Positions 3,924 to 7,847 of a DNA stretch of 24,186 nt are shown here, piece by piece (positions within the stretch are counted from its first letter, which is position 1; each line of letters begins with the position of its first letter). Source of the DNA: a virus. Where the stretch lies: positions 1-24,186 of IMG/VR virus record IMGVR_UViG_3300020183_000452. One strand, written 5' to 3'. Under the pieces are notes generated by a model, which ran no database searches, was not told the DNA's origin, and saw nothing but the letters and a program-made list of their open reading frames with translations. Position numbers and translations under genes: made by a program.

Positions 3924-6345
3924 ATGCAGGCATAATTGAACCCATTTGGAAAGCCTTGATTGTGGGTTCGTTGTTTCGGATGCGTAGGTCGTCGTTAAAG
4001 TTGTTTGTCACATTGTTCACGTTGGTTCTTGAGTTGTTTGTTGCTACAACCGAAGAGTTTGCAGCGGGGGTGCTTGCTGTTGCGTTTGCCAGTTCTGAAC
4101 GAGCAGCACCAGCAGCCATAGTCTGTCTGCCTACTTCACTCCCTGCACCTGATGTGGGTGCCACCGAGCCTTGGTATCCAGCCCCATTAACCGCTCCAGT
4201 TTCGTTTGAGGCTGATTTTTCTCCATCAATCGGGTTTGCTCCGCCATCTTCAACTGAAATAAGACTACCCAAACCAGGAATAGATTCCACCAAGTCGTAG
4301 ATTCCTCGTCCACCAAGGGCTTCGCCAAGTTGTTCGCCCAACCATCTGCCCAACCACGCTCCACCCATACTACCAACAATGCCTCCAATTGCAGTTCCTG
4401 CACCAGGCACAACAGAGCCAAGGGCACCTGCAAGCACGCCCCCGCCTATGCTTCCTAGTGCTCCACCTATTGTTCCTACCAACTGCTTTCCAATCATCTC
4501 TTTTTTCTCGTCAGGAGACAGATTGGGGTTGCCTTTGGTTGACGATATGTCCATTGCACCAATTGCAGTTTCAAGTAGAGCACCTATGCCAGGAGCACTC
4601 AACAAAGCCTTGCCTACAGTTTTTGCAGACCCTCTGATGCCTTCACTCAATAGGTTCAGTGGATTGAGTCTAGACGCTGCTCCGCTCACTGCTCCAAATG
4701 CGGAAGAAAGTCCTGATCCAATAGAAGACAGTAGTCCTCTACCACCACTTACTACTTTACCTGCTGTGGACGCAATTGTGCGACCTGCCAATCGTGGAGC
4801 AAGACGAGCAGTACGCAACAATCGACCAGTACGACCTCTACGACCTACCATGCCTATGGCGGTGTCCATCAATCCGCCCGATTCACCTGACCCCTGTCCA
4901 TCCTGATTGCCAAACATAGACATGAGTCCACCGCCACCGATTCCCAATTTGTTTGCAATAAGAGCCATAAGACCGACAAGAGTTCTTGGATCTTTGGAGC
5001 CTTTATCTCCTATTGCCTCTGCCATGTCATCCAGCCCCTGTAGAGGAGACTCCGCTTGTGCTCCGTATTCGGGAGACGACAGTTCTCCTGCGTCTGGTGT
5101 GCTTGATTCTGGTGGGAAAGGTATGACTGATGACTGTGCGCGTCTTCCAGTGAATGCGCCACCAAAATCTAGATACCCTGTTCTGGTTTTTGCACCACGA
5201 CGAGAAACACGTTTTCCTATTCTGCCCAAGAATTCTGATTCGGTGTCTCGTGATTCTCTTCGTTCCCGAGCAATATCAGACAGTAGACCACCCACAACAG
5301 GAATACCTGCAAGAAGCCTTTCCGGAATGGATCGCGCATACGTCTCAACACTCTCCTTTACTCTTGCGCCAAAACCAGACTGCTTCTTTAGTGTTTCTAC
5401 TACTGGCTGTATCAGTGACTCTATTTGAGACGCTACTGCGTCGGCAGTTCCGCCCTTTGCTTGTTTTGCAATATTCAGAATAGACTTTAGGCGAACCAAG
5501 TAATACGACGCTTCTTTGGCGTCTCGCGCTTCAAGTGCGTCTTCGGATAGATTAACTGCTTGCTCAAGTAGTTCTTGAGCAGCAAGTCCACTCATCTTGT
5601 TGGGGTCAAATAGGTTTCTATTTGCAGAGATGAAGTCTTGAGCAACGTCTCTGATTCCACCTCCGCCTTCTCCCCCCAATACCTGTTCTTCAAGCGTGGT
5701 GTCTGCTCCGAGTTTTTCTCGTCTTTGACGTATCTTTTCTAGTATATCAGACCGCTCTGGTGGAGCACTTGCAGCAGGCTCAGATGTTGGAGGTTCATTA
5801 TCTTCTGGTTGCCTCTGTCCTTGTTTGGCTCTTTTGGCGCGTTCTTGTTCCGCAGCGCGTTCGGCTTTGGCGCGTTCTCGTGCAGCAGCGCGTTCGGCTT
5901 TGGCGCGTTCTCGTGCAGCAGCGCGTTCGGCTTTGGCGCGTTCTTGTTCCGCAGCGCGTTCGGCTTTGGCGCGTTCTCGTTCCGCAGCGCGTTCGGCTTT
6001 GGCACGTTCGGTCGCTTCAAGGTCCGCAGCGCGTTCGGCTTTGACACGTTCTCGTTCCGCAGCGAGTTCGGCTTTGACACGTTCTCGTTCCGCAGCGCGT
6101 TCGGCTTTAGCCTTTTGTTTCGTGTCGTAGTCGTTTGCGGTTTTATATGCAGCAAGAAGAGCAGTTTCTGCCTTGGCTACTTGTTTTTCTGCTGCACGAA
6201 CTGCGTGAGGTCTTGCGGTTGCCGCTATGTAAGTTCCGTTTGGGTTACGACCCTTACGTGCTTTTTCAAGAACACGCTCTGCGTACTGAAACGCTTCGGT
6301 TGCGTCTGCAATTAGTTGCTGATATACCTCGTTACCTGTAGCCAT
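3922..6345 (-). CDS. Tail tape measure protein (gp29 position)
   Basis: This 807-residue protein is the best candidate for the tape measure that spans the tube lumen and sets tail length. Residues 1-75 are helical. Residues 78-172 are an almost pure charged helix of 11-residue units (AKAERAAERER and variants). Residues 200-330 are further helices. Residues about 540-720 hold hydrophobic, Gly/Ala-rich segments (LVGTIGGALGSIGGG and VPGAGTAIGGIVGSMGG) that could insert into a membrane, a hallmark of tape measures. The C-terminus is an Asn-rich tail ending in MGSIMPA. It lies directly downstream of gp26 and its frameshift region, the usual place for a tape measure after tail assembly chaperones. 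AAGGA seven bases before the ATG gives a good ribosome-binding site. T4 gp29 is 590 aa. At about 0.15 nm per residue this would predict a tail near 120 nm (inference). Confidence 0.75.
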   Translation of the reverse strand: MATGNEVYQQLIADATEAFQYAERVLEKARKGRNPNGTYIAATARPHAVRAAEKQVAKAETALLAAYKTANDYDTKQKAKAERAAERERVKAELAAERERVKAERAADLEATERAKAERAAERERAKAERAAEQERAKAERAAARERAKAERAAARERAKAERAAEQERAKRAKQGQRQPEDNEPPTSEPAASAPPERSDILEKIRQRREKLGADTTLEEQVLGGEGGGGIRDVAQDFISANRNLFDPNKMSGLAAQELLEQAVNLSEDALEARDAKEASYYLVRLKSILNIAKQAKGGTADAVASQIESLIQPVVETLKKQSGFGARVKESVETYARSIPERLLAGIPVVGGLLSDIARERRESRDTESEFLGRIGKRVSRRGAKTRTGYLDFGGAFTGRRAQSSVIPFPPESSTPDAGELSSPEYGAQAESPLQGLDDMAEAIGDKGSKDPRTLVGLMALIANKLGIGGGGLMSMFGNQDGQGSGESGGLMDTAIGMVGRRGRTGRLLRTARLAPRLAGRTIASTAGKVVSGGRGLLSSIGSGLSSAFGAVSGAASRLNPLNLLSEGIRGSAKTVGKALLSAPGIGALLETAIGAMDISSTKGNPNLSPDEKKEMIGKQLVGTIGGALGSIGGGVLAGALGSVVPGAGTAIGGIVGSMGGAWLGRWLGEQLGEALGGRGIYDLVESIPGLGSLISVEDGGANPIDGEKSASNETGAVNGAGYQGSVAPTSGAGSEVGRQTMAAGAARSELANATASTPAANSSVVATNNSRTNVNNVTNNFNDDLRIRNNEPTIKAFQMGSIMPA
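5830..6114. repeat. 33-bp tandem repeats encoding the tape measure charged helix
   Basis: About eight to nine units of 33 bp (11 codons) run through this stretch, two of them identical (5870-5902 and 5903-5935). The minus-strand product is AKAERAA followed by ERER, EQER or ARER. The unit length keeps the heptad-like 11-residue periodicity of a right-handed helix or coiled coil. One interrupted unit near 6000-6030 (ADLEATER) breaks the register. All six frames stay open here because of composition, which produces spurious plus-strand ORFs. Confidence 0.93.
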
Positions 6346-6374: not shown

Positions 6375-6506
6375 TCACAGGGGCTTTCGCTTTGACGCTC
6401 GTTCTTTCTCTGCTTTCAAATAGTTCAGCAGCAGTGTTATGTAGACTTCCCGTTCCCAAGGAATAAGGTTTTCCACCTCTTCTAGGGAGTAGTTGTGGTG
6501 CTGCAT
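6375..6506 (-). CDS. Alternative: stand-alone 43-aa ORF within the -1 frame
   Basis: If no frameshift occurs, the only internal ATG of the -1 frame (6506) would give 43 residues beginning MQHHNYSLEEVENLIPW. No Shine-Dalgarno precedes it (the upstream bases read AACTTTGACCTG), and it would discard the preceding 19 residues, which look like protein sequence. I consider it less likely than the fusion. It is listed because the coding signal itself seems real and would otherwise be missed as a gene. Confidence 0.3.
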   Translation of the reverse strand: MQHHNYSLEEVENLIPWEREVYITLLLNYLKAEKERASKRKPL

Positions 6507-7261
6507 CAGGTCAAAGTTTAGTTGATAGTAAGCCCCTAGTGTGTTATGACACAGGGCTATTGAAAAAAATCGGTCACGCTCTTCAGTTCAATAGTGTTAG
6601 ACTCCCCACAGTGAGGACACACAAACTTGAACGAGTACTTTAGTTCAGGGATGCTCTTAAAGTACTGCATAATTTTTTCAAACTGTTCGGGCAGCATATT
6701 CTCTACAAAGTCTGAAATCTCTTTGGGGTTAAGGTCTTTGGCTAGCACCACCTCTTCACCCAACACAAAGGAGTCAATACACTTCTTTGTCATTTCAATC
6801 ACCATCTCTACTTCGGACAGATTGTAGTCCAAATCGTGCATGGACGGATACCGCATGATTACTGTGGTGTTGTCGTTCAGAGAGATTTGCGAATTGACGG
6901 CTTCTTTGTCTACCGCGCTAATACTGATATCGTCTAGTTTCAGTTTGTATGACGCGGACTGCCCACATTTACCGCATACCACTTGCGGCTTTACTTCTTC
7001 ACCAACAGACTTGCAGCGTATCTGAAGAAACGCGTATTCGGTGTCTGCTGTGCAAATCTTTTTTGTGTCCAGTGTGTTCTTTGTGCACGCAGACACCACA
7101 TTACGAATGGAGTCGTTTATTTGGTTTTGGTTGTTGGACTGTAAAGCCATGAGGAGAACCTTCTCCTCTTTCACAACAAACGGTCGGTACTTTACAACCA
7201 TTCCAGAAACAGGAAGAGTCATGGTGTATTCAGGCAATGAAGCAAGGGTCAATTTATTCAT
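6375..7261 (-). CDS. Predicted gp26-T frameshift fusion (tail assembly chaperone-like)
   Basis: Reading gp26 through residue 233 and slipping back one base on T-TTT-TTT (6569-6563) gives a 295-residue product with 62 extra residues, stopping at TGA 6377-6375. The extension starts SIALCHNTLGAYYQLNFDLM and continues with SLEEVENLIPWEREVYI and a charged helix KAEKERASKRK. The order 'aromatic helix, Asp-Leu-Met, SLEEV-x(4)-PW, helix' resembles the downstream (T) part of tail assembly chaperones, which is usually expressed only by frameshifting. The -1 frame is open from 6587 and has no ATG, GTG or TTG before 6506. The tape measure gene starts 30 bases after this stop. In lambda, gpG and gpGT coat the tape measure before tube polymerisation. 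Whether gp26 has that role here is inference. The frameshift itself is predicted, not shown. Confidence 0.66.
6531..6569 (-). promoter_or_regulatory. Putative -1 programmed ribosomal frameshift signal
   Basis: Three elements line up on the minus strand. The slippery heptamer T-TTT-TTT at 6569-6563 is in the right register of gp26 (GAT TTT TTT CAA TAG). A four-base spacer (6562-6559) follows. Then comes a two-part hairpin: AGCCC (6558-6554) pairs with GGGCT (6535-6531), and directly above it TGTGT (6553-6549) pairs with ACACA (6544-6540), with loop CATA and a four-base bulge (6539-6536) on the 3' side. The zero-frame stop TAG (6559-6557) sits at the foot of the stem. Slippery site, short spacer and stable stem are the standard parts of a -1 frameshift cassette. 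Confidence 0.7.
6557..7261 (-). CDS. 26: gp26-like baseplate hub / tail assembly protein
   Basis: This 234-residue protein matches the T4 gp26 family pattern: an N-terminal PEYTMTLPVSG followed by VKYRPFVVKEEKVLLMAL, then IRCKSVGEEV and a CGKCG motif (96-99), a helical middle (LPEQFEKIMQYF), and a second CPHCG motif (215-218). The two CxxC pairs could bind zinc. In T4, gp26 is needed to assemble the baseplate hub, although its place in the virion is unclear. The start has GAGGA five bases upstream, and a promoter-like CTAAATA lies further up. The last codons GAT TTT TTT CAA TAG form a slippery run before a hairpin (see the frameshift feature), so this is probably the short, more abundant form of a two-product gene. 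A 211-base gap to the tape measure is otherwise unexplained. Confidence 0.85.
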   Translation of the reverse strand: MNKLTLASLPEYTMTLPVSGMVVKYRPFVVKEEKVLLMALQSNNQNQINDSIRNVVSACTKNTLDTKKICTADTEYAFLQIRCKSVGEEVKPQVVCGKCGQSASYKLKLDDISISAVDKEAVNSQISLNDNTTVIMRYPSMHDLDYNLSEVEMVIEMTKKCIDSFVLGEEVVLAKDLNPKEISDFVENMLPEQFEKIMQYFKSIPELKYSFKFVCPHCGESNTIELKSVTDFFQ

Positions 7262-7295: not shown

Positions 7296-7847
7296 TCAAC
7301 GGTATGAAATGTAATCAGATCGAATTTTTCGGAAATGGAACGAAACTTCCTGCTGCATAAGGTCGCCGTCTTTGTCGTAGCCCAACTGGATTTCACCCAC
7401 TGATTTGGGATACGCTTCCTCAAGAGTGCAAACATGATAGAACCCGTCGTCACGGTTGAGTGCGTTTATTTGAATTTCTGTTACATAGTTGTCGTAGTAC
7501 TCCATTTTGAAGTCTTGGGGATTGCAGATGTAGTCAAGCCACGCGTCAAAGAACTGCCGCTCCCGTAGATCCGCAGACAGTATGAATGTGGCGTTTAGTT
7601 CTCCTTGGTATGTCATCTCAAACGGGAAGTTTCGTGCTGGTCCGTACAGGCGATTGGACTGGGTTGCAAGAGACTTGCTTGGTATTGATATGGAACTGCA
7701 CCGTACAGACAGTTGCTGCAAAAACGAAAAGTCCACCGTGAGTTCTCTCGGCGGAAGTATTATCATTTCGTAACGATTTCCGTGTGCAACCCCACTCTGA
7801 AGAATGGAGTCCATCATGCTGTTTATGTTTCCTGGTGTGAATGCCAT
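7296..7847 (-). CDS. gp19-like tail tube protein
   Basis: This 183-residue protein resembles the T4 gp19 tube fold. It has N-terminal helix MMDSILQSGVAHGNRYEMII, the strand pair LSVRCSSISIPSKS, FPFEMTYQGELNATFILSADLRERQFFDAWLDYI in the middle (T4: WTVTVMNDEAHDARQKFVDW), and a C-terminal EEAYPKSVGEIQLGYDKDG-L-QQEVSFHF (T4: LWPTNVGELQLDWDSNNEIQTFEVTL). Tube subunits stack as hexameric rings around the tape measure. Its place beside gp26 rather than beside a sheath gene suggests it may be a paralogous tube or tube-initiator ring (gp54-like role) rather than the main tube. Its start follows the upstream TGA directly (TGA then ATG), and the gene before it ends there. Confidence 0.72.
   Translation of the reverse strand: MAFTPGNINSMMDSILQSGVAHGNRYEMIILPPRELTVDFSFLQQLSVRCSSISIPSKSLATQSNRLYGPARNFPFEMTYQGELNATFILSADLRERQFFDAWLDYICNPQDFKMEYYDNYVTEIQINALNRDDGFYHVCTLEEAYPKSVGEIQLGYDKDGDLMQQEVSFHFRKIRSDYISYR

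Follow-up and report, generated by a model that had tools for sequence, protein, structure and literature searches.

The window, by which we mean the whole 24,186-nt stretch of the IMG/VR virus record IMGVR_UViG_3300020183_000452 that was analyzed, carries on its minus strand a gene of 234 codons that ends with the stop codon TAG at 6559-6557 (Table 1). Its product contains the PF12322 domain of the T4-like gp26/gp51 chaperone family (PF12322, PHROG 150/634), and by these sequence matches the gene is the gp26 gene of a T4-like phage. Upstream of gp26 are a tail tube paralogue, a DNA end protector gene, and a head closure gene, which follow the same order in phage phiM7. Downstream, the gp26 frame overlaps a second open frame, whose end at 6375 is 30 nt upstream of the gene taken as the tape measure. 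Two overlapping frames therefore lie between tail tube and tape-measure-like genes, the tape measure match itself being weak. Within the putative tape measure gene, tandem 33-bp repeats at positions 5833-6108 encode A/E/K/R-rich repeats. Rfam and tRNA scans returned no match.

The 3′ end of gp26 reads ACC GAT TTT TTT CAA TAG, in which the heptamer T-TTT-TTT is followed by CAA TAG. A first-pass annotation of the window had placed this heptamer in the slippery register of the gp26 frame and had described the −1 frame as open from 6587 to a TGA, with 62 added residues; both statements can be read directly in the sequence. The TGA is at 6377-6375, the extension comprises 62 codons counted from 6563, and the residues gained after Asp-Phe-Phe in the −1 frame are SIALCHNTLGAYYQLNFDLMQHHNYSLEEVENLIPWEREVYITLLLNYLKAEKERASKRKPL. 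The predicted fusion is 233 + 62 = 295 aa long.

Table 1. Features of the gp26 locus in the window, and variant sites at the corresponding place in relatives.
Feature	Position	Strand	Evidence
Slippery heptamer T-TTT-TTT in the gp26 frame (Asp-Phe-Phe codons)	6563..6569	-	Conservation in relatives
gp26 frame-0 gene, short form (TAC-N)	6557..7261	-	PF12322 E=4.5e-57; PHROG 150 E=8.8e-59
−1 frame extension, gp51-type C-terminal domain of the predicted long form (TAC-NC)	6375..6563	-	PHROG 634 E=4.4e-26; dN/dS 0.13; junction alignment
Hairpin, 4 nt after the heptamer	6531..6558	-	MFE -12.1 kcal/mol, z -3.3
Putative tape measure gene, 807 aa	3922..6345	-	Weak PHROG 167 tape measure match 1.2e-6, position, size, repeats
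Tail tube protein paralogue, directly upstream of gp26	7296..7847	-	PHROG 45 tail tube E=1.4e-30
Heptamer-less Ackermannviridae and Vibrio loci	L085:2280-2310, L101:2285-2305, L102:2290-2310, L096:2045-2070, L092:2210-2230
KVP40, K567, YB07, and phiM7 sites	L083:2315-2335, L103:2320-2340, L084:2250-2265, L089:2165-2195

At the gp26 3′ ends of relatives, the T-run is kept almost throughout. The pattern NNT TTT TTY is found at the same place in 69 of 72 distinct gp26 proteins (IMG/VR relatives and 14 named phages) and, in a second, more distant gp26 set, in 77 of 78 distinct relatives; a third set, found by searching with the extension alone, has T TTT TTN in 58 of 59 distinct loci, and the three sets overlap in part. 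Among 8265 other gp26 codons from 36 relatives, in-frame T TTT TTN did not occur once. Because the pattern is absent from the other gp26 codons yet present here in nearly every relative, the slip site stands above chance.

Some variation was observed at the site. In the set derived from the extension (L199-L278), 15 of the 59 distinct loci have T-TTT-TTA in place of T-TTT-TTY. In two relatives (L068 and L073), the 0 frame continues for several codons beyond the slip site before it stops, and the shift position is unchanged. The −1 extension is also kept in the Ackermannviridae SFP10, May, and JA15 and in the Vibrio phages D492 and SUMAE, where ATT TTC or CTT TTC replaces the heptamer.

The −1 frame remains open for approximately 155-190 nt beyond the gp26 stop in every IMG/VR relative with a readable end; the other alternative frame in the same relatives is usually closed within about 16 nt. 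Purifying selection, for which a check had been proposed, was found in the −1 frame only: across 36 distinct members of the window's clade, the dN/dS of the extension is 0.13 in this frame and greater than 1 in the other two. The extension is conserved from its very first codon, and beyond its stop variation is equal in all three codon phases (0.54-0.55).

A hairpin can form shortly after the heptamer, and none of 200 shuffled sequences folded as well. Of the structure given in the first-pass annotation, the base that pairs 6558-6554 with 6535-6531 is as described, but the upper arm has 4 bp rather than 5, in a slightly different register; the minimum-energy fold has one G-U pair extra. The hairpin is stable across the window's clade (most z values are about −1.9 to −3.5), and its commonest stem, GCCC...GGGC, is kept in most members, while the L036 group pairs another stem at the same place. 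For the named structure, the alignment revealed conservation with little covariation. No consensus structure emerged when 29 sequences were folded together with RNAalifold, probably owing to different pairing in the L036 group and in L062. The hairpin is likely a frameshift stimulator in the window's clade. However, since a strong local stem after the slip site is missing from many distant relatives, it is an accessory of this clade and not a defining part of the system.

The extension had been taken for an unannotated domain, a view that has to be corrected: it belongs to the family known as gp51 and matches PHROG 634, named "baseplate hub assembly catalyst". In cyanophages, the gp51-type extension is often annotated as a separate gene, which is sometimes 5′-truncated. 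In the T4-species sequence used here (phage RB55, Tequatrovirus T4), gp26 matches PF12322 over the whole protein, and gp51 matches PF12322 at 1-201 (7.7e-55) and PHROG 634 at 147-246 (8.2e-24). When a profile of the predicted fusions was aligned with T4-type gp51 (hhalign E 7.7e-24, 241 columns), the junction was crossed without a gap, with DFFSIALCHNTLGAYYQ in the predicted fusion facing DVFKLLVNPDEIFTFYQ in T4-type gp51. The predicted long form therefore has a gp51-type C-terminal domain, as judged by the PHROG 634 match and the gapless junction, and from these matches and this alignment we infer that T4 gp51 corresponds, in one continuous frame, to the frameshift product and that the short form corresponds to T4 gp26.

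The two phage types accordingly share a family (PF12322 with PHROG 634) and a short/long pair, and differ in that T4 has two genes and a gp26 without NNT TTT TTY, whereas the window has one gene and a shift. All 18 tested genomes with a −1 extension have a single PF12322 gene, while all eight tested T4-type genomes have two (gp26 and gp51). None of the T4-type gp26 ends examined contains NNT TTT TTY; they read GAG TTC TTT, GAA TTC TTT, AGT TTC CTT, GAA TTT GTT, or GAG TTT TTT. An unrooted tree, which shows the split without its direction, places the proteins in three groups (slip-site gp26, T4 gp26, and gp51). T4 gp26 and gp51 have been listed as hub assembly chaperones, gp51 being required for assembly and absent from the final particle, and genetic evidence for gp26 in the T4 hub has been noted (PMC3004832). 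The listing and the assembly role of gp51 fit a chaperone reading; the genetic evidence for gp26 in the T4 hub fits it less well.

The extension had also been called T-like, after the T part of tail assembly chaperones, and this likeness concerns position and architecture. Alignment of gp26 and the extension with lambda G, lambda T, and Mu gp41 by hhalign gave probabilities of 0.1%, and Foldseek searches of the PDB with gp26 and gp51 models returned no match, as did sequence searches of the PDB. Since neither homology to the lambda and Mu proteins nor a match to a solved fold was found, "T-like" is to be read as an analogy of position and architecture only. Lambda G/GT is likewise a short/long pair made by a −1 shift at the 3′ end of a gene directly upstream of the tape measure; however, its slip site is G GGA AAG, and its proteins have no detectable sequence similarity to those described here. 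P2 E/E+E′ is similar in having a poly-T slip site (T TTT TTG) and a 57-aa extension directly before the tail length gene T, but hhalign of the two extensions covered 19 columns at a probability of 1.8%, which establishes no homology. The gp26/gp51 locus of the cyanophages S-RSM4 and P-SSM2 is orthologous and has T TTT TTC; unlike the locus in the window, it is annotated as two genes, with a 5′-truncated gp51 in S-RSM4.

That annotation points to a different reading of the locus, with the extension as an independent gene 51 that has a translation start of its own. It is annotated in this way in S-RSM4, P-SSM2, Melnitz, and phiM7, and in KVP40, K567, YB07, phiM7, and D492 a −1-frame ATG indeed overlaps or adjoins the gp26 stop. 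In the window, however, no ATG, GTG, or TTG follows the slip before the ATG at 6506, as the first-pass annotation had noted; this ATG is codon 20 of a frame conserved from codon 1 and is not preceded by a Shine-Dalgarno sequence. The search for a second ORF with its own start and ribosome site yielded none in the window's clade: a Shine-Dalgarno sequence precedes a start codon within the first 20 codons in 0 of 46 distinct extensions, as against 41 of 45 gp26 starts, and the first start codon in the L036, L041, and L049 rows does not appear until codons 30-44, beyond the first half of the conserved block. The second ORF is open and under selection, and has no initiation signals of its own. With no ribosome site, late start codons, and conservation from codon 1, a free-standing gene is therefore unlikely in the window's clade, and we regard this explanation of the locus as very improbable. 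Even in KVP40, K567, YB07, and phiM7, the slippery run is kept despite the nearby start. The heptamer and a start codon at the gp26 stop occur together in these four phages, so reinitiation is possible there and may add to or replace the shift, giving a free extension.

Two further explanations accept the T-run and place its meaning elsewhere. RNA polymerase could slip on the run and produce mixed mRNAs, so that the frame would change at transcription; the window does have seven consecutive T, but in many relatives the run is only six T long, with C or A as the next base, which fits the ribosomal X-XXY-YYZ rule. Runs of six T are shorter than those usually reported for transcriptional slippage, and we consider this origin of the frame change marginally less probable again than a separate gene. 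The least probable of the three is that the T-run and the open −1 frame are by-products of a conserved Asp-Phe-Phe and an old gene fusion, with no functional shift. Asp-Phe-Phe is itself conserved, but the codons that encode it are not freely chosen: in the first gp26 set, the first two codons are NNT TTT in all Phe-Phe rows, although at other positions in the set about half of the codons for Phe, Asp, and Asn end in C (for example, 342 TTT vs 310 TTC for Phe and 546 GAT vs 505 GAC for Asp). The selection on the extension also argues against a by-product, as does the lack of a second PF12322 gene in genomes that carry the −1 extension.

We conclude that a single gene at this locus very probably gives rise to a pair of tail assembly chaperones by −1 ribosomal frameshifting, with a predicted fusion protein as the long form. 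On sequence grounds, the frameshift is strongly supported by the preserved slippery run, the selected −1 frame, the second ORF that lacks a start with a ribosome site, and T4 gp51 as its in-frame version. The fusion protein, the ratio of short to long form, and the chaperone action are inferred; for the chaperone action, the grounds are position, architecture, and T4 genetics. Most ribosomes would stop at TAG and release the 234-residue gp26, the short form, while a minority would slip back by one base with tRNA-Phe on both codons of T-TTT-TTT, aided in the window's clade by the downstream hairpin. The slipped ribosomes would read on into the extension and produce a low level of the 295-residue gp26-gp51 fusion, the long form. 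By analogy with lambda G/GT (PMC5009743), the shared part may coat the product of the adjacent tape measure gene and the extension may recruit tail tube subunits, and both forms would leave the particle afterwards. In T4-type phages, each of these products would have a gene to itself: gp26 for the short form and gp51, an in-frame fusion, for the long one.

The G-T frameshift was described in a 2016 review as widely conserved "except T4" (PMC5009743). The proposal that gp26 is the G-like member of a chaperone pair is supported by our analysis and is already prior work: Vladimirov, Gautam, and Davidson (2022, Virology 566:9-15), as cited in PMC10885494 and PMC12846349, identified the tail chaperone genes of T4-like phages. 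In these citing passages, the study is credited with reporting, for some T4-like phages, a short gene alongside a longer fused one (PRFect, PMC10885494) and, for T4-like TAC-N genes, poly-T slip sites (the Adele paper, PMC12846349). The locus in the window is thus not categorically new but a well-conserved and very clean new example of a trick reported for T4-like phages. Far more tentatively, and with the odds against it, one could suppose that these proteins form a non-homologous class in which the frameshift architecture before the tape measure was either retained or arose anew, and that the two-gene version in T4 is a derived loss of the shift.

These results favor regarding gp26 and "gp51" as a single frameshifted gene in T4-like phages from marine and fresh waters. 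Such genes are often annotated as two, with gp51 truncated, or omitted as in SFP10 and AS-zj. The results also ground in sequence a claim about T4 that can be tested, namely that gp51, an essential hub protein whose function a 2010 review gave as unknown, is the chaperone's long form. Genomes with one and with two PF12322 copies can serve as natural controls in asking what sets the short/long ratio.

Two minor observations concern proteins encoded in the window. A 581-aa protein encoded on the minus strand at 764-2509, near gp33 and gp32 homologues, had no PHROG match at E<=0.01. The CxxC pairs of gp26 have a patchy distribution among relatives.
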